NCBI RefSeq assembly: GCF_000615445.1
Contig: NZ_BALY01000001.1
Coordinates: 48,878-112,877 of the forward strand
Origin: Lactobacillus hamsteri DSM 5661 = JCM 6256
GTDB taxonomy: Bacteria > Bacillota > Bacilli > Lactobacillales > Lactobacillaceae
DNA: 64,000 bases
Reading direction: 5' to 3'
Notes under the pieces: model-generated
Seen by the model: the letters and a program-made list of their open reading frames with translations, nothing else
Database searches by the model: none
Told to the model about the DNA's origin: nothing
In this document: positions 55,740 through 61,586 of the stretch, one piece after another
Layout: every line of letters begins with the position of its first letter
How positions within the stretch are numbered: position 1 is the first letter of the stretch
Translations under genes and position numbers: made by a program

Positions 55740-56465
55740 ATGGCGGATTTTGTTTATCGTAACGTAATGCGAGATATTAAGCAGAATATTTTAAATGGCA
55801 ATTACGAAGGGATGCGTCTTCCTGATGAACGGAGTTTAGCTGAACATTATGATGTCAGTCGTTCATCGATGAAGAGAGCTTTAGGATTGCTAGCTGATCA
55901 AGGGATCGTTTTTAAAAAGCGCGGTAGTGGAACTTTTATCAATCCGCTGTATTTAAAAAATCAAGCCTTATTTCAATATGAGGGTTCTAATTTGGGTTTG
56001 ACTGATAGTTTCCGGATGCCAGGTAAAAAGCAGACGATTAAGCTTCTTGATTTTCATGTTATTAAAGCTTCTTCAGAAATTGCCCAGGATTTGTTTTTGA
56101 AGGAAAATGATTTTGTTTATGAATTCAAACGTTTGCGTTTACTCGATAAGCAGCCATTTTTAATTGAAACGGGTTATTTACCAATTAAAATAATGCCGGA
56201 ACTTACGCCGGAAATTTTGCAATCGTCTCTTTTTAACTATCTAGAAGATGAGCAAAGCAAGACGGTAACTAAATCATTCTTAAATATTACAGTTGAACCA
56301 TCTAATGAAGAAGATCAAAAGCAAATGAAGCTTAAGGAAACCGAACCAGTCGGCGTTATGGAGGGGATTTTCTTCTTAGATGATGGAACGCCTTTTGAAA
56401 TTTCTAATATGCGTGTCCATTATAAATACATGCGATTCAATACTTTCGTAAATTTAAATGGTTAA
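55740..56465 (+). CDS. GntR/UTRA family transcription regulator
   Basis: 241-residue regulator with a winged-helix domain (RLPDERSLAEHYDVSRSSMKRALGLLADQGIVFKKRGSGTF, in part, near 27-66) and a C-terminal UTRA ligand domain. It starts directly after the hydrolase stop and likely represses its own operon in response to a sugar phosphate or nucleoside signal. The inverted repeat before rbsK is the candidate site. Confidence 0.9.
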   Translation: MADFVYRNVMRDIKQNILNGNYEGMRLPDERSLAEHYDVSRSSMKRALGLLADQGIVFKKRGSGTFINPLYLKNQALFQYEGSNLGLTDSFRMPGKKQTIKLLDFHVIKASSEIAQDLFLKENDFVYEFKRLRLLDKQPFLIETGYLPIKIMPELTPEILQSSLFNYLEDEQSKTVTKSFLNITVEPSNEEDQKQMKLKETEPVGVMEGIFFLDDGTPFEISNMRVHYKYMRFNTFVNLNG

Positions 56466-56476
56466 TTTATGTAAAG

Positions 56477-56527
56477 AAAACACTGATAATCATCGTTAAA
56501 TAAACGTTGATATATCAGTGTTTTTAC
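56477..56527 (+). terminator. Terminator of the rbsK-gntR operon
   Basis: AAAACACTGATA / TATCAGTGTTTTT stem with an inner CGTT/AACG pairing. Confidence 0.85.
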
Positions 56528-56601
56528 TTTCTAAAGAATCATGATTAAATCAAATTAAGACTTATTTCCCAGAGTCTTTATCTTATAATAATACATTTTG
56601 A

Positions 56602-56706
56602 CTAATTTCTACTCTTAAATGCAATTCTGGCGGTGTAACGGCTAGCACCAATAGCAATTCTTAATCCCTTAACTTTTGTATTATTTTCAAAAGTGTAGTC
56701 ATCTCT
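56602..56706 (-). other. Unexplained 34-codon coding-like remnant downstream of rgg
   Basis: A minus-strand open stretch in the same frame as rgg, after its TAG and a TAA, encodes a basic, protein-like segment (DDYTFENNTKVKGLRIAIG, then ASRYTARIAFKSRN) ending in TAG. It has no start codon or ribosome binding site. It may be the 3' end of a lost gene. Overlapping in another frame an ATG gives 13 codons. No family recognised. Confidence 0.3.
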
Positions 56707-56721
56707 TTAGAGGAAGTGGTG

Positions 56722-57591
56722 CTAATAGAGGCTGAATATCTGATTCGCTGCAAATTTTAAATCGTTATATAGATGATCTAGTCCAAGATTTTTAATAGAG
56801 AGCAATTGAGAGTGAATTTCTGATTTATCTTTGGTAGATGTATATTGGATTAAAGATGTCATAAAATTAATCCTTATTTGTTCTAATATGAAATTTTCAT
56901 TGAATTTCATAGTGTAAAAACCGTCTACCAGTTCTTGAGCTTTATCCGGTTGTTTCATTTTTAGTAAAGCAAAAATTGCATTTAAAATTGCTTCTAGTAA
57001 TAAAGAATGCCAATTTTGTCTGTTAATGTGATTTTCAATAGAAAAATTAATTAATGATTTGCCCAATCTAAATAATAATTGAGGCTTTATTAATAATTGT
57101 GTGCATGAAAAGTAAAGAATATTTTCGTAAGTCCAGTTTTCTAGATTGGAAAAATATTCGTTTAATTTTACCTGAAGAGAATTAGGAAAAATATTCTTGT
57201 TGGTCAAGTCCTGATAGAAATTACATGCGATTGAAGCTTGAAAAACGTATACCTTTTCTTTAGGAGAATCTTTATAAAGTTCAAGATATCTTTGGGCAAG
57301 GTTTCTTAAGGTCGGAAGATCGCTATAGTAATAGGCAATCATTGATTGTTTATATAAGTTTGCTAGTTGTGATGGAGTATTTGAACCGAGAAACTCGTCA
57401 GGTTGAATGTGAATTCTGTAAAGAAGGTCAATCACCTTACTAAAAGATAAGTTATCATTACCTTTTTCCCACCGGTCAAGGCTAGATTTACTGGTTATTC
57501 CTTGTGCAGCTGTTACTATGTCAATATTGTTTTGTTTTCTTAATTCTCGAAATTTTGGTCCATAAATTGGATCTTTTATATCTTTAGTCAT
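56722..57591 (-). CDS. Rgg/MutR family transcription regulator
   Basis: 289-residue cytoplasmic regulator. N-terminal XRE-type helix-turn-helix (GPKFRELRKQNNIDIVTAA, then KSSLDRWEKGNDNLSF, residues 10-55) followed by an all-helical TPR-like domain (about 80-289). Known Rgg proteins bind short secreted hydrophobic peptides imported by Opp or act without one. Here a 38-codon hydrophobic-peptide ORF diverges from it at 18 bases and an SLAP surface-protein gene follows, so a peptide-regulated surface circuit is possible. TAAGGA before the ATG serves as its ribosome binding site. Confidence 0.87.
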   Translation of the reverse strand: MTKDIKDPIYGPKFRELRKQNNIDIVTAAQGITSKSSLDRWEKGNDNLSFSKVIDLLYRIHIQPDEFLGSNTPSQLANLYKQSMIAYYYSDLPTLRNLAQRYLELYKDSPKEKVYVFQASIACNFYQDLTNKNIFPNSLQVKLNEYFSNLENWTYENILYFSCTQLLIKPQLLFRLGKSLINFSIENHINRQNWHSLLLEAILNAIFALLKMKQPDKAQELVDGFYTMKFNENFILEQIRINFMTSLIQYTSTKDKSEIHSQLLSIKNLGLDHLYNDLKFAANQIFSLY

Positions 57592-57609
57592 GAAAGAGAT
57601 TCCTTACTA

Positions 57610-57726
57610 ATGCAAAATAAAAAACAATGGATACAAGCCATAATTACTATCGTTATAGGTGGAGGATTAATCACACACTTTAATCCAGGTAATTTCATGG
57701 TGATGTTTAATTACTTAAATCACTAA
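57610..57726 (+). CDS. Small hydrophobic peptide divergent from rgg (pheromone candidate)
   Basis: 38 codons, too short for usual gene calling. It has a basic start MQNKKQW, a hydrophobic core IQAIITIVIGGGLI (residues 8-21) and a tail THFNPGNFMVMFNYLNH. Start ATG 57610 follows GAAAGAGA with 10 bases spacing. The layout resembles SHP genes of Rgg systems: short, hydrophobic and head-to-head with the regulator. A membrane-active toxin or a chance ORF are alternatives. An 11-bp hairpin 28 bases after the stop could end the transcript. Confidence 0.5.
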   Translation: MQNKKQWIQAIITIVIGGGLITHFNPGNFMVMFNYLNH

Positions 57727-57754
57727 ACATTATTTCATAAATATATTAGATTTT

Positions 57755-57790
57755 AAGAATTATTCTCATTATTGGGAATAATTCTTTTCC
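57755..57790 (+). terminator. Perfect 11-bp inverted repeat after the peptide ORF
   Basis: AAGAATTATTC (57755-57765) and GAATAATTCTT (57776-57786) with a ten-base loop, then TTCCTTTT. AT-rich, so a weak terminator of the peptide transcript or a regulator site. Confidence 0.5.
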
Positions 57791-57819
57791 TTTTGCTGGA
57801 AAAATATAGATAATTTTAC

Positions 57820-57833
57820 TCCCATATCTGGGA
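57820..57833. promoter_or_regulatory. Palindrome TCCCATATCTGGGA upstream of the SLAP gene
   Basis: Fourteen bases with perfect 5-bp arms (TCCCA/TGGGA) standing out in very AT-rich DNA, about 97 bases before the SLAP start codon and 6 bases after a -10-like GATAAT (57809-57814). Possible binding site for the nearby Rgg or another regulator; inferred. Confidence 0.4.
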
Positions 57834-57929
57834 AGAAAGCACAATGAAAGAATAAATGATGATTTAATTAGAGTAAGCTTTGAAGAAATAATTCAAGGCA
57901 AATATCTTTATCATAGAAGGGAAGATCAT

Positions 57930-58850
57930 ATGAATTTAAAAAAAGCATTAATTGGCTCAGTATTATTGATGTCTACCGGATTAGCTTTTGGCTTTTCTGA
58001 AATAAACGCTTATCAAGCTCAAGCAGCAACATCTGAAAATACCATTACTATGCGTTTTGGTGGTGCGTTAGTATATGACAAAAATGGAAAGCCATTAAAC
58101 GATTATCCTGGAGCAGGAACCTATCTTGAAAAGGCTCACCTTGAGGAAGGTACAACTGTCGATTATTACGGAAAGCCTAAATATATGAATTGGTATCATA
58201 GGAATACTAATAAAAAAGCTATTTTCTATAACATTGGTAAAGGCGGATATGTATTGGGCTACAATGTTGCTTCCCTTGATAACAAAGGTACGCTTAGCGT
58301 ATATAGAAACTCATATATTTATGACAAAAACGGCAAAAGATTGAAGAAGTATCAGGGAAGTAAATCCAATATCTTGATTAGAAAAGGAACAGCTGTTAAT
58401 TACGTTGGTAAATTAAATGAAATGCCTAATACGGATAAAAATTTGCCGAAGTTTTATTACTTTAATACGGGTAATCAACCTACAGCTGACAAGATGCTTT
58501 GGCCAAGTTATCGTACCGTTAAAGGTAAACAATACTACAATATTGGCGATGGCGGTTATATTAAAGCTATTAATATTGGTTATATAAATGGTAAAAAGTT
58601 AAAGGCAGCTGAAGCTACAGTTGTAATAGGAAAACCATGGCGTAAAGATACAGGAAAATATTATATCTGGAAGAAAAATAGTGATGGGATGAAACTGACG
58701 AAAAAGACGTTTTCATTTGAACCAGGTCAAAAAGTAGTCGTTGATAGAGAATACCAAGTTGGTAGAACTTATTGGCGAGTAAAAGGTACTGAAAACTATA
58801 TTTTTGGTCCAGATATTAAGACATTTCCATTGCAATATCCACGGTATTAG
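57930..58850 (+). CDS. Secreted SLAP-domain surface protein
   Basis: 306 residues: signal peptide 1-33 (MNLKKALIGSVLLMSTGLAF then cleavage after AYQAQA), then three or so related modules of about 80 residues with VYDKNGKPL / IYDKNGKRL, YYNIGDGGYIKAINIG and FYNIGKGGYVLGYNV. These are the S-layer-associated SLAP pattern, which binds the cell wall non-covalently. High pI, typical of Lactobacillus surface proteins. AGAAGGGAAG is a strong ribosome binding site. No enzymatic domain. Its expression may depend on the Rgg/peptide pair upstream. Confidence 0.82.
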   Translation: MNLKKALIGSVLLMSTGLAFGFSEINAYQAQAATSENTITMRFGGALVYDKNGKPLNDYPGAGTYLEKAHLEEGTTVDYYGKPKYMNWYHRNTNKKAIFYNIGKGGYVLGYNVASLDNKGTLSVYRNSYIYDKNGKRLKKYQGSKSNILIRKGTAVNYVGKLNEMPNTDKNLPKFYYFNTGNQPTADKMLWPSYRTVKGKQYYNIGDGGYIKAINIGYINGKKLKAAEATVVIGKPWRKDTGKYYIWKKNSDGMKLTKKTFSFEPGQKVVVDREYQVGRTYWRVKGTENYIFGPDIKTFPLQYPRY

Positions 58851-58932
58851 ATTGATCCAAGGAGAAATAAAATACAACAATTTTAGATAGTCTAAGAAAC
58901 AATCTTCTTTAAGCCCAAATAAAAAGAATAAG

Positions 58933-58984
58933 AAAAAGACGGTCAAGCAACTCAAATCAAGAGTTGGATTGATCGTCTTTTGGT
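58933..58984. terminator. Bidirectional terminator after the SLAP gene
   Basis: AAAAGACGGTCAA / TTGATCGTCTTTT stem with inner CAACTC/GAGTTG; it ends both the SLAP gene and the converging small gene. Confidence 0.88.
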
Positions 58985-59047
58985 ATCTGAGAATTAGTTT
59001 TTCCCCAGATACTTTTTTATGGATTCGTTTTTGATCTAGAAAATAAA

Positions 59048-59413
59048 CTACAATCGTGAGAATTGTTTGGCATCATTTACTGGACCGCTGTAGACATAAT
59101 TCAGATTGACATACTTAGTTTGATTCGTTAATTCACGCATATATTCTTGTTGCTGACGAGTTAACGGTAAATGATTTATTGCTACTTGGCTTTGAATATA
59201 CATCACCAACTTGCTAGTGTAAGCTAGTGGATGATCATGTTCATCAAATTTACGCATCACTAAACCAATGGTGTCCCTAATTTGACGATAACGATGAATA
59301 TTTAACTCATTGTACATATCGGTAAAAAAACTACGATAAAACTTATCTAAAATTTGATAAACTTGTTCTTCTTTTTTTGCTTGTTTATATTGATTATATG
59401 CCGGAGAAAACAC
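59048..59413 (-). pseudogene. Unknown helical protein, probably lacking its N-terminus
   Basis: 121 codons from a GTG at 59413, highly charged and helical (QAKKEEQVYQILDKFYRSFF ... LTRQQQEYMRELTNQTKYVN) ending SGPVNDAKQFSRL. The size and helical layout resemble class II bacteriocin immunity proteins, but I cannot confirm that. Coding-like sequence continues upstream: an ATG at 59484 opens MFKKEWEQAK, and one extra A would lead through KKLKKKPNSSQD and a TAA into this frame. So this may be a decayed gene cut by the adjoining element. Confidence 0.45.
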
Positions 59414-60805
59414 GGGATTTTAATCTTGTGATGAATTCGGCTTTTTCTTTAGTTTTTTGCTTGTTCCCATTCTTTCTTGAACATATGTTTGATATAATGT
59501 TACTAGAAGGGAGGAACAAATGTGCTGAAAGGAATCAAATTAAGGCTCTACCCTAATAAAACCCAGCAAGACCAGCTTGAGCAGATGTTTGGCAATGACC
59601 GTTTTGTCTGGAATCAGATGCTGGCTATGATGAACGAGCGCTACCAGAACAATAAGGATTTGCCTTTTTTGGGCAAGTTTAAGCTGAATTACCTGCTTAA
59701 GCCGCTTAAGAAAGAATATCCCTTTTTGAAAAATAGCGATTCTTCAAGCCTGCAGGTAGTTAATGAATTTTTAACCCAGTCTTGGAAAAACTTTTTTCAA
59801 GATAAAAGCGGCCAAATTGGCAAGCCGCGCTTTCATTCACGCAAGTATTTAAAGAAGTCTTATACTGGCAAGTCGATCATCAAAGTTGCTGGCAAGCGAT
59901 ACCTGAAGATCCCTAAGTTGGGTTATATTAAAACCAGTAAAACAGGGTTTTTGGAAGGTGCTAAAATCAAGCGTTATACGGTTGTGCTTGAATCAACGGG
60001 CAAATATTATCTGTCCCTGCAGGCAGAAGTGTCTGAACCCCAAAAGCTTCGCTTAACTGGCAGAGAAATTGGCATCGATGTCGGTATAGCTGATTTAGCA
60101 ATTCTGTCTAATGGCTTGAAATACCCTAGCTTTGATGGCTCTTATTTTGAAAAGAAAGCCAAAGCATGGCAAAGAAAATATTCCCGCCGCAGACATTTGG
60201 CTAAGCTGTTGGCTTTGCAGGATAAAAATAGAAAAGTGCTTTGTCCTAGAAGCGTGGAAAACTTTGTTAATTGGCAAAAAGCCCAAAAACTAAAAGCCAG
60301 ATATCAAGCTAAAGCAACTAATCAGCGTAGAGACTATTTGCATAAGTTAACGACACATTTGGTTAAGCAGTATGATGTGATTGTCATCGAAGATTTGAAA
60401 ACCAAGAATCTTCAACACAATCACTGCCTGGCCAAATCAATCGCCAATGCTTCATGGCGGATGTTTAGACAAATGCTGGAATATAAATGCAAGTGGTATG
60501 GTAAAAGACTAATTGCGGTAGATCCTAAAAACACTTCAAGAATTTGCTCAGAATGTGGCTATAACAGCGGCGCCAAGCCATTAGAGATTCGTGAATGGAC
60601 TTGTCCTAAGTGTCAAACTAGGCATGACCGGGATATTAACGCGGCAATTAATATCTTGTATAAAGCAAAGCCAAATGGTCAGGGACTGGCCATGGTAAAG
60701 AGCTGAGTTCCGTGAGTTAGGTATTTGAGCAATCAATGTAAGATCCTAAACACTACTTAGTGTTCCCAGAACCCCGGCACTTTAGTGCCGGTGTAGTTCA
60801 TTTCA
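59405..60805 (+). mobile_element. TnpB-only IS200/IS605-type element (IS1341-like)
   Basis: About 1.4 kb carrying a single tnpB without tnpA. The right end holds two hairpins, AACACTA/TAGTGTT (60749-60764) and CCGGCACT/AGTGCCGG (60774-60791), followed by TGTAGTTCAT near the presumed end (about 60800-60805). The left boundary is unclear; an imperfect hairpin CACGGGATT/AATCTTGTG (59411-59430) is a candidate. tnpB uses CTG and AGC-type codons more than the neighbours, which fits foreign origin. Coordinates are estimates. Confidence 0.75.
59522..60706 (+). CDS. tnpB: TnpB RNA-guided nuclease
   Basis: 394 residues, full length. N-terminal helix-turn-helix OrfB domain (LKGIKLRLYPNKTQQDQLEQ). RuvC-I Asp in IGIDVGIADLAI (near 187), RuvC-II Glu in VIVIEDLKTKN (near 293), zinc finger CSEC ... 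CPKC (near 341-363) and RuvC-III Asp in RHDRDINAAI (near 368) are all intact. Characterised TnpB proteins cut DNA guided by an RNA from the element's right end and help the element persist. Promoter: extended -10 TGATATAAT (59489-59497). Start codon GTG or TTG-like at 59522 behind GGGAGG. Confidence 0.92.
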   Translation: MLKGIKLRLYPNKTQQDQLEQMFGNDRFVWNQMLAMMNERYQNNKDLPFLGKFKLNYLLKPLKKEYPFLKNSDSSSLQVVNEFLTQSWKNFFQDKSGQIGKPRFHSRKYLKKSYTGKSIIKVAGKRYLKIPKLGYIKTSKTGFLEGAKIKRYTVVLESTGKYYLSLQAEVSEPQKLRLTGREIGIDVGIADLAILSNGLKYPSFDGSYFEKKAKAWQRKYSRRRHLAKLLALQDKNRKVLCPRSVENFVNWQKAQKLKARYQAKATNQRRDYLHKLTTHLVKQYDVIVIEDLKTKNLQHNHCLAKSIANASWRMFRQMLEYKCKWYGKRLIAVDPKNTSRICSECGYNSGAKPLEIREWTCPKCQTRHDRDINAAINILYKAKPNGQGLAMVKS

Positions 60806-60825
60806 TCTAAAGAGGAGGCAGAATA
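60600..60825 (+). ncRNA. Presumed omega RNA (reRNA) of TnpB, boundaries approximate
   Basis: By analogy with other TnpB elements, the guide RNA overlaps the 3' end of tnpB and the right end. The two hairpins at 60749-60764 and 60774-60791 form its scaffold, and the guide would be the roughly 16-20 bases beyond the element end, here TTCATCTAAAGAGGAGGC, which belongs to the interrupted DeoR gene. Ends inferred. Confidence 0.55.
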
Positions 60826-61276
60826 GGTAAGGCGTTCGCTTTTTTTTGATTTCTCCACCGAGCATGCTGACGGCTGGAAGCGGATAACGCATCAAAGCTG
60901 CCGCATTATCGATTGAATTAGTAACTATTTGCAAATCGATTCCACCAAGCATATTGCATAACTGACATAAAGTTGTAGAGGGACCAATGAAATCAAATTG
61001 TCCAGGATGAATGAAACGTTTGGCTACTTTAGCCATTTTTTCTTTAATCGGAGATTGAATTTGATTACGAGATAAAAAGTCTGGCACATCATTTTGATTA
61101 ATTTCCATTAAGCCCCCATGAATTCTAATTGCTTGTCCGGTCGTGGTTAACCGAAGGACATCGCGACGCGCCGTATCAAAAGAGACTTTAAAGTGGGATG
61201 CTAAAAAACGGGTTGATAATTGATGTTTGTCTTTTAGCATCTGTTTAATTTCGATTAATCTTTTTTCTTGTGTCAT
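60806..61276 (-). pseudogene. DeoR family regulator, cut off by the TnpB element
   Basis: Sugar-metabolism repressor missing its last third (about 157 of 250 residues). Start ATG 61276 follows GGAGGAAGAAA. Winged helix: LSTRFLASHFKVSFDTARRDVLRL (near 21-45). Sensor domain starts IHPGQFDFIGPSTTLCQL. The frame goes astray at the T8 run 60840-60847; with one A fewer it reads MLGGEIKKSERLTYSASSLDEM, a good DeoR match, before meeting the element's end. The missing part is not at the other side of the element. Its former target may be the divergent phosphoketolase gene. Confidence 0.8.
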
Positions 61277-61586
61277 TTTCTTCCTCCACATCGAATACTA
61301 TCATGACTAGAAATAAAAATATTTATTTGGTGCGTGTTTAATATTTTTTATTAAGCATATATCCGTATTTACAAAAGCGAATACAGATATGTAGAAATCA
61401 AAATACTGATAAATCAGTGATTACTAATAATTGTAGTAAATGAAACGCTTAAATTCATTCATAATAATTGGGTGGTACCAATTAATAAAATAGTTGAACT
61501 TTTGTAAAAAATTGGTATTATAGAGTTATAAATAAAACGAGAAAACGTTATCAAAATAAATAAAATTATTTCAAAGGAGATTGTAA
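61277..61586 (+). promoter_or_regulatory. xfp: xfp control region: promoter, cre site and two inverted repeats
   Basis: Promoter TTGAAC (61494-61499), 16 bases, TATTAT (61516-61521). The cre-like AGAAAACGTTATCA (61540-61553) matches TGWAANCGNTNWCA at 13 of 14 positions and lies downstream of the promoter, where CcpA would block elongation. TAATTGG-N6-CCAATTA (61465-61484), just upstream of -35, and ACTGATAAATCAGT (61405-61418) are operator-like inverted repeats. The ribosome binding site AAAGGAG precedes the ATG. Confidence 0.7.

Follow-up and report, generated by a model that had tools for sequence, protein, structure and literature searches.

In Lactobacillus hamsteri DSM 5661 = JCM 6256, a 64,000-nucleotide (nt) stretch of contig NZ_BALY01000001.1 (positions 48,878 to 112,877; hereafter the window) carries an Rgg-type regulator gene, a divergent open reading frame (ORF) of 38 codons with a GGG core, and a gene for a SLAP-domain surface protein. 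We consider it reasonably probable that this Rgg protein would switch the SLAP gene via two palindromes in response to a signal likely derived from the GGG peptide. Control of the SLAP gene by Rgg appears fairly well supported and the peptide is likely the Rgg ligand; from the sequence we infer DNA binding, the direction of control, the ligand role itself, and export of the peptide as a pheromone. The locus is laid out as follows.

56722-57591, minus strand: rgg, Rgg-type regulator of 289 amino acids (aa) (ORF listing, Rgg_C match)
57592-57609: gap of 18 nt between both start codons, holding the weak Shine-Dalgarno (SD) sequence GAAAGAG at 57593-57599 (sequence)
57610-57726, plus strand: GGG-peptide ORF of 38 aa with an ATG start, predicted Rgg-signal precursor, MQNKKQWIQAIITIVIGGGLITHFNPGNFMVMFNYLNH, core IVIGGGLITHFNPGN (ORF listing)
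57755-57786, plus strand: inverted repeat of 14 pairs enclosing operator A, then TTCCTTTT
57763-57778: predicted Rgg operator A, TTCTCATTATTGGGAA, 11 of 12 positions matching TTCCYA-N4-TRGGAA (pattern match)
57819-57834: predicted Rgg operator B, CTCCCATATCTGGGAA, 11 of 12 positions (pattern match; score reached in 0 of 200 flank shuffles)
57930-58850, plus strand: SLAP-domain surface protein of 306 aa, predicted output gene (SlpA domain; signal peptide by eye)

The three genes had been recognized in the initial annotation, and the ORF listing returned each of them in its place. The rgg product combines the N-terminal helix-turn-helix and C-terminal helical domain of the Rgg family: it matched Pfam Rgg_C above the cut-off (1.9e-13, 51 bits versus 27), with HTH_3 below its cut-off (18.6 bits versus 23) and NCBIfam RGG_Cterm slightly below (34.9 versus 36.9). 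A structure model of the protein (pLDDT 88.5) gave Rgg2, Rgg144, and DNA-bound Rgg3 as its top Foldseek matches in the PDB (TM 0.56-0.70), and the recognition helix is predicted at about residues 35-42, inside TSKSSLDRWE. Matches to this Rgg were present in 55 of 75 genomes of the genus; in those 75, no full-length relative exceeded 41% identity, a broken one reached 44%, and short pieces reached at most 66%. Relatives of 55-94% identity turned up as proteins only, the relatives found in the plasmid search were all below 60%, and none were found in viral contigs. The source genome (1.83 Mb in 81 contigs, with the window reaching a contig end) encodes the further Rgg loci L033, L034, and L036, plus a broken one, L035.

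The product of the SLAP gene carries an SlpA domain (PF03217, 1.4e-9, 38.4 bits versus a cut-off of 23) behind an N terminus, MNLKKALIGSVLLMSTGLAFG, that reads by eye as a signal peptide, as expected of a SLAP protein. Its relatives number 19 at E ≤ 1e-10, the best at 92% identity, and one at 77% is named Lactobacillus helveticus. An Rfam scan of 56400-59100 returned no matches, and a scan for sigma-70 consensus promoters was left unused (6 sites versus 7.4 in shuffles, no excess); the promoters of rgg and the peptide ORF likely each overlap the opposite gene.

That the SLAP gene is an output of Rgg, as the initial annotation had proposed, gained support from the gap between the peptide ORF and the SLAP gene, which carries two palindromes, TTCTCATTATTGGGAA and CTCCCATATCTGGGAA, fitting the helix class of the window Rgg. 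The comparison drew on 100 stretches fetched around Rgg matches and six named loci, four of these dropped as repeats; after the exclusion of seven stretches lacking an Rgg N terminus, 99 N termini were left, including two weak ones (the second frames of L103 and L115). Palindromes of the same 6-N4-6 build adjoin rgg in part of these loci, mostly ahead of the neighboring gene. In L033 and L040, a site fitting TTCCYA-N4-TRGGAA separates rgg from a SLAP gene; in L045, L050, L061, and L066, where rgg is followed by a gene for an exported protein, such a site precedes that gene. Across the survey loci (731,733 bases), sites matching at least 11 of the 12 positions numbered 23 versus 6.5 in 10 shuffles, with 13 of the 23 outside ORFs, for a consensus composed after viewing the sites of the window, L033, L040, and L041.

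Other arm sequences accompany other Rggs: TGCCAA-N4-TTGGCA beside L043, L047, L048, L058, and L060; TTCCGA-N4-TCGGAA beside L037, L051, and L075; and TTTGCA-N4-TGCAAA-like palindromes beside L062, L063, L081, L088, and L092. These differences follow the recognition helix, in that SKSxL(D/Q/A)RWE pairs with CCCA/TGGG, SKSxLSLWE with CCTA/TAGG, SRQxLGNWE with GCCAA/TTGGC, and NKSTLAEWE with CCGA/TCGG. When the 450-nt flanks of 24 Rggs were scored against these four classes, the Rgg's own helix class scored best in 19 of 24, 19 of the 24 tested Rggs having also served to define the classes. Among the five outside the class definition, the fit reaches 12 of 12 positions for L049 and L078 (near kin) and 10 of 12 for L038; for L046 there is a tie, and L054 fails. 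Assignment by eye gave an operator to 24 of 41 Rggs, made up of 15 rows of the 27-row clade described below and 9 of 14 others. A genus-wide search for TGCYAANATATTRGCA returned 20 places versus one control match; six of the 20 lie 13-54 nt past an Rgg stop codon, five with the matching helix, and the sixth (L072) is cut short.

In the source genome's broken locus L035 (G000:C69:13903-14737), the disrupted rgg stands beside an intact SLAP gene, and an operator-like palindrome before the SLAP gene has been kept. The remnant of rgg has another copy of the palindrome close to its start.

We then turn to the peptide, which the initial annotation had paired with Rgg as its pheromone, suggesting a search across the genus for such a peptide with an adjacent Rgg. 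Pairs of this kind do recur in Lactobacillus genomes, as a family of peptides adjoining Rgg genes. A single rule for small ORFs required an ATG start, a length of 18-70 aa, divergent orientation, a start lying 0-130 nt away from a fixed Rgg residue, a hydrophobic 12-mer, and an SD. It was passed at 28 of 99 Rgg N termini versus 4 of 398 other long ORFs in the same loci (Fisher 1.4e-17, a value that overstates certainty because related genomes are not independent). The narrower GGG-type motif was found at 16 of the 99 and at 1 of the 398 control ORFs. On reading, the 28 comprised 19 GGG-type peptides, 4 of a second class, 2 resembling the short hydrophobic peptides (SHPs) discussed below, and 3 apparently spurious ORFs (L049, L078, and L095). 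Eighteen of the 33 closest Rggs pass the rule, with the window counted as a miss.

GGG-type precursors are 28-41 aa long and share a basic start, a hydrophobic stretch, GGG or a variant of it (NGG, WGGA, WNGA, SGG, SSG, or GDS), mostly (L/I)(V/I), and a variable tail after the GGG. The 38-aa window peptide had no match in a Pfam scan. A profile built from 18 of the peptides matched 14 small proteins at E ≤ 10, 11 of them at <1e-3, some being the query peptides themselves, including that of the window (P0043) and that of L034 (P0046). Species named among the matches were L. crispatus, L. ultunensis, L. pasteurii, L. amylovorus and, weakly, L. helveticus (E 0.07 and 2.4).

The frame of these peptides shows purifying selection. 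Eight pairs of related peptides that align without gaps (269 codons in all, with members shared among three of the pairs and one pair from the second class) gave a proportion of synonymous differences of 0.60 (pS) versus 0.28 for nonsynonymous ones (pN). Identical residues across the pairs amounted to 78 of 120 in the core, 33 of 71 before it, and 40 of 85 after it, and the best conserved part was IGGGLITHFNPGN. A different view of the same frame came from P0003, a relative whose Rgg is 72% identical to that of the window and which carries 41 extra residues before the Rgg start. These correspond to the peptide ORF read in antisense, the start codon probably having been annotated too far upstream. 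When this extension was read back, 25 of 35 codons were compatible with the window peptide versus 12 of 35 identical antisense residues, and GGGLITHFNPGN was compatible at all positions except one. These figures support, without proving, selection on the peptide frame and not on its antisense, the compatible sets being broad. Such an antisense-side reading was possible only in P0003 (with its fragment P0020); the short N-terminal extensions of P0005 and P0007 read differently, so the peptide is unproven there.

The source genome holds a second GGG-peptide/Rgg pair at L034 (G000:C76), where ~10 nt separate a 41-aa ORF from rgg, close to the end of a contig. The L034 peptide is resembled by 35-aa L. 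helveticus proteins (65% and 62%).

A number of results weigh against the proposal, beginning with the palindromes. Besides the provenance of the consensus and of the helix classes given above, the class test was tied in L045 and L046 and beaten in L035, L054, and L070 (L035 and L070 having broken or shortened frames), and 12 of the 27 clade rows have no assigned operator. A lax form of the operator pattern was not enriched in the source genome (111 versus 116 for the control), and we therefore claim no wider regulon. The peptide promoter has no operator copy within two arm mismatches, so a positive feedback loop or autoinduction is unsupported; a different palindrome, GGTCCATAAATTGGATC, lies at this promoter, inside rgg, at 57557-57573.

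Operator A also looks like a terminator (a hairpin of 14 pairs followed by the short T-rich tail TTCCTTTT) and may additionally end the peptide transcript. The palindromes could then be transcription terminators or RNA hairpins, with the SLAP gene outside the control of the window Rgg. Exact matches to TTCCYANNNNTRGGAA bear on both readings. Their number in the genus, 72 as opposed to 33 when the pattern is reversed, favors operators, and 7 of them adjoin surveyed Rggs; many of the others lie within genes or elsewhere, away from any Rgg (surroundings viewed for part of the 72), which favors the rival. However, operator B is absent from the list of terminator-like sites, and the sequence of the palindromes tracks the recognition helix, which together make this explanation highly improbable in our view; predicted Rgg operators are the reading we retain.

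Further points against the proposal concern the peptide and the neighboring genes. The window peptide is not among the 28 that pass the small-ORF rule, because its SD is only the weak GAAAGAG, relatives mostly having AAAGGA or AAAGG; its assignment to the family depends on its GGG core, its distance from rgg, and the conservation of the frame relative to P0003. Although L033 and L040 are among the closest Rggs, lie beside SLAP genes, and have the palindrome, no peptide ORF was found there, and at L034 the side of the peptide lacks a surface gene, the other side being the contig end. Elsewhere, rgg is kept with a peptide that is frameshifted (L043 and L058), altered (L038), or undetected (L037). 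SLAP neighbors were not significantly more frequent in the Rgg clade (4 of 27 versus 11 of 198, P = 0.09), nor were secreted neighbors of any kind by a crude measure (10 of 27 versus 42 of 198, P = 0.06), and the latter also did not exceed those of the ABC-type set introduced below (10 of 39, P = 0.24).

Some of these peptide results would be expected if Rgg controlled the SLAP gene and the GGG peptide were a small peptide of membrane or bacteriocin-like type that travels with rgg and has no part in sensing. The peptide is GGG-rich and hydrophobic, rgg and the palindrome are kept beside the broken peptides of L043 and L058, and a protein with a bacteriocin immunity domain is encoded close by, as the genes beyond the SLAP gene show.

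59048-59413, minus strand: EntA_Immun (bacteriocin immunity) domain protein of 121 aa, 4.4e-6, downstream of the SLAP gene
59522-60706, plus strand: IS605-type OrfB/TnpB-like gene
60803-61291, minus strand: shortened DeoR-family regulator, whose DeoRC match ends at position 76 of 160

We regard a bystander peptide as distinctly improbable nonetheless, given that the peptides recur by Rgg genes with similar spacing and scarcely by control genes. A peptide that acts on the neighboring Rgg remains our preferred explanation. At L043 and L058, the frameshifted peptide lies beside an intact rgg, and the peptide is intact in the sister loci L047 and L060, a pattern of signal lost and receptor retained.

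The proposed mechanism runs as follows. Rgg (56722-57591) is predicted to bind both palindromes before the SLAP gene and would switch that gene in response to a peptide-derived signal. The ligand is likely cut from the divergent 38-codon GGG peptide, and its active part is predicted within IGGGLITHFNPGN or immediately behind it. Since no operator was found at the peptide, a steady peptide level is more likely than a self-amplifying one. Export via an EcsB/PptB-type transporter, cutting by an M50 site-2 protease, and return through a peptide importer form a possible route, the least certain step of the scheme, and one considered possible because the genome encodes one M50 protease, one EcsB, and SBP_bac_5 binding proteins.

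The last step is where a third explanation departs from ours: Rgg would control the SLAP gene via the palindromes as proposed, and the peptide would act inside the cell on Rgg or the membrane, with no export and no cell-to-cell signaling. Its lack of D and E residues, the cleavage mark of SHPs, would fit such a role, as would the length of the precursors and their tail after GGG, which are unlike those of SHPs, and the lack of an operator at the peptide. Against this, a basic start and a hydrophobic core are the usual shape of exported Rgg signals (PMC10075063), and homologues of the exporter, protease, and binding proteins are encoded. On balance, we think a purely intracellular peptide unlikely and lean toward a signal that would be exported.

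How far this arrangement extends was judged from a tree of 90 Rgg rows, built by a quick method, unrooted, and leaving out L070 and L136 as too short. Sixteen of the 19 GGG-labeled Rggs fall in one 27-row set (support 87), L041 being scored as peptide-less since its peptide sits further away. The GGG label requires at least 12 changes on this tree, of which starred branches force 8; the label is therefore often gained and lost. We put forward tentatively, with doubt slightly outweighing confidence, that these Rggs represent an undescribed, genus-wide Lactobacillus class of Rgg pheromone systems, in which GGG-core precursors, mostly encoded a few nt from the receptor start, would act on receptors that have a readable DNA code and steer S-layer-associated or other exported proteins. 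A set of Lactobacillus Rggs has a peptide class of its own and palindromes that can be guessed from the protein; in the proposed class, the regulated products would form the cell coat, where the host and other cells are encountered. Such a class would supply testable peptides and target promoters for surface-layer control in lactobacilli, as well as a natural series (peptide intact, broken, or absent, always beside a retained receptor) in which the separation of signal from receptor could be followed.

Other branches of the tree differ in what adjoins rgg. A 37-row set (e.g., L036, L067, L096, and L101) has no GGG label; 30 of its 37 rows face an ORF of 480-540 aa, and all six of those scanned were ABC transporters. 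This ABC-facing branch has no long peptide ORF and is possibly of the leaderless communication peptide (LCP) type known from Limosilactobacillus reuteri; no LCP mini-ORFs passed a simple filter, itself run without a positive control, in the 27 clade rows or the 37 ABC-type rows. The second peptide class, at L062, L063, L064, and L081, consists of 45- to 54-aa ORFs with ..F(I/F)(Y/F)(I/L)P.., divergent from their Rggs, and by a crude signal-peptide rule an exported-protein gene follows rgg at these loci. The flanks of L062, L063, and L081 carry the TTTGCA-N4-TGCAAA-like palindromes, and their helix ends in LSRWE. SHP-like ORFs also occur in Lactobacillus, divergent from rgg at L128 (G035) and L133 (G042), e.g., MKNKTKILSALILLLDILIIVGG; these two cases fall in a separate 6-row set of the tree.

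Peptide signaling via Rgg is known mainly from streptococci, and SHPs are ~22-26 aa long. Like the SHP/Rgg systems of streptococci (Rgg2, Rgg3, and Rgg144), the window locus has a receptor of the same family and fold and, 18 nt from rgg and with a weak SD, a short basic-hydrophobic peptide gene. A profile from 20 Lactobacillus Rggs matched Rgg144 (7zcv) at 6.5e-22 and Rgg2 (4yv6) at 5.2e-20. The encoded EcsB, M50, and SBP_bac_5 homologues are candidates for the PptAB, Eep, and Opp steps of SHP export, maturation, and import, the search on the import side having covered binding proteins. The peptide itself differs: the mature C-terminal SHP (DIIIIVGG type) is usually cut ahead of E or D (PMC12445099), whereas neither residue occurs in the window peptide, which has GGG at its center and a tail of 19 residues, ending in FNYLNH. 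The SHP-like ORFs of the genus, moreover, sit by the separate Rgg branch of L128 and L133. The related MutRS systems (group III SHP/Rgg) likewise pair an Rgg-type regulator with a hydrophobic peptide, of 24-26 aa; the two peptides displayed in PMC12445099 have no GGG core, and the known target is production of the lantibiotic mutacin, not surface proteins.

The LCP/RopB systems (Streptococcus pyogenes SIP and the Limosilactobacillus reuteri LCP) resemble the window locus in placing the gene for an Rgg-type receptor beside that for a hydrophobic peptide (the two are divergent in L. reuteri) and in having the neighboring gene as target. Do et al. (PMC10518010) describe a Streptococcus salivarius RopB-type operator as an inverted repeat with a 4-bp spacer, and leaderless signals of mostly 8-10 aa, one of them in Limosilactobacillus reuteri. 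The conserved window ORF, in contrast, has 38 aa, and the 20-Rgg profile fits RopB, a shorter chain, less well (3.7e-10) than Rgg144 (6.5e-22).

The initial annotation knew of no system of this arrangement in lactobacilli, and our literature search, which covered the main text of freely readable papers, among them PMC3150281, PMC4162386, and PMC5913232, likewise found no description of a GGG-peptide/Rgg/SLAP arrangement. In the portions available, GGG peptides and SLAP targets are described neither in PMC10518010 nor by Felipe-Ruiz et al. (PMC9765709), whose search for Rgg peptides relied on similarity to mature peptides already known; the 2023 study by Do et al. reports flanking small ORFs for 478 of 975 RopB homologues, among which some GGG cases may be included. 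The cell-to-cell signal would thus be of a type undescribed for lactobacilli, as far as this search reached. Taken together, the proposed GGG-peptide/Rgg system would work much as SHP/Rgg and LCP/RopB do, but its peptide lacks the D/E cut of the one and the leaderless 8-10 aa form of the other, and because of these two differences we place it as a probable variant of Rgg-peptide signaling that is neither an SHP nor an LCP system.

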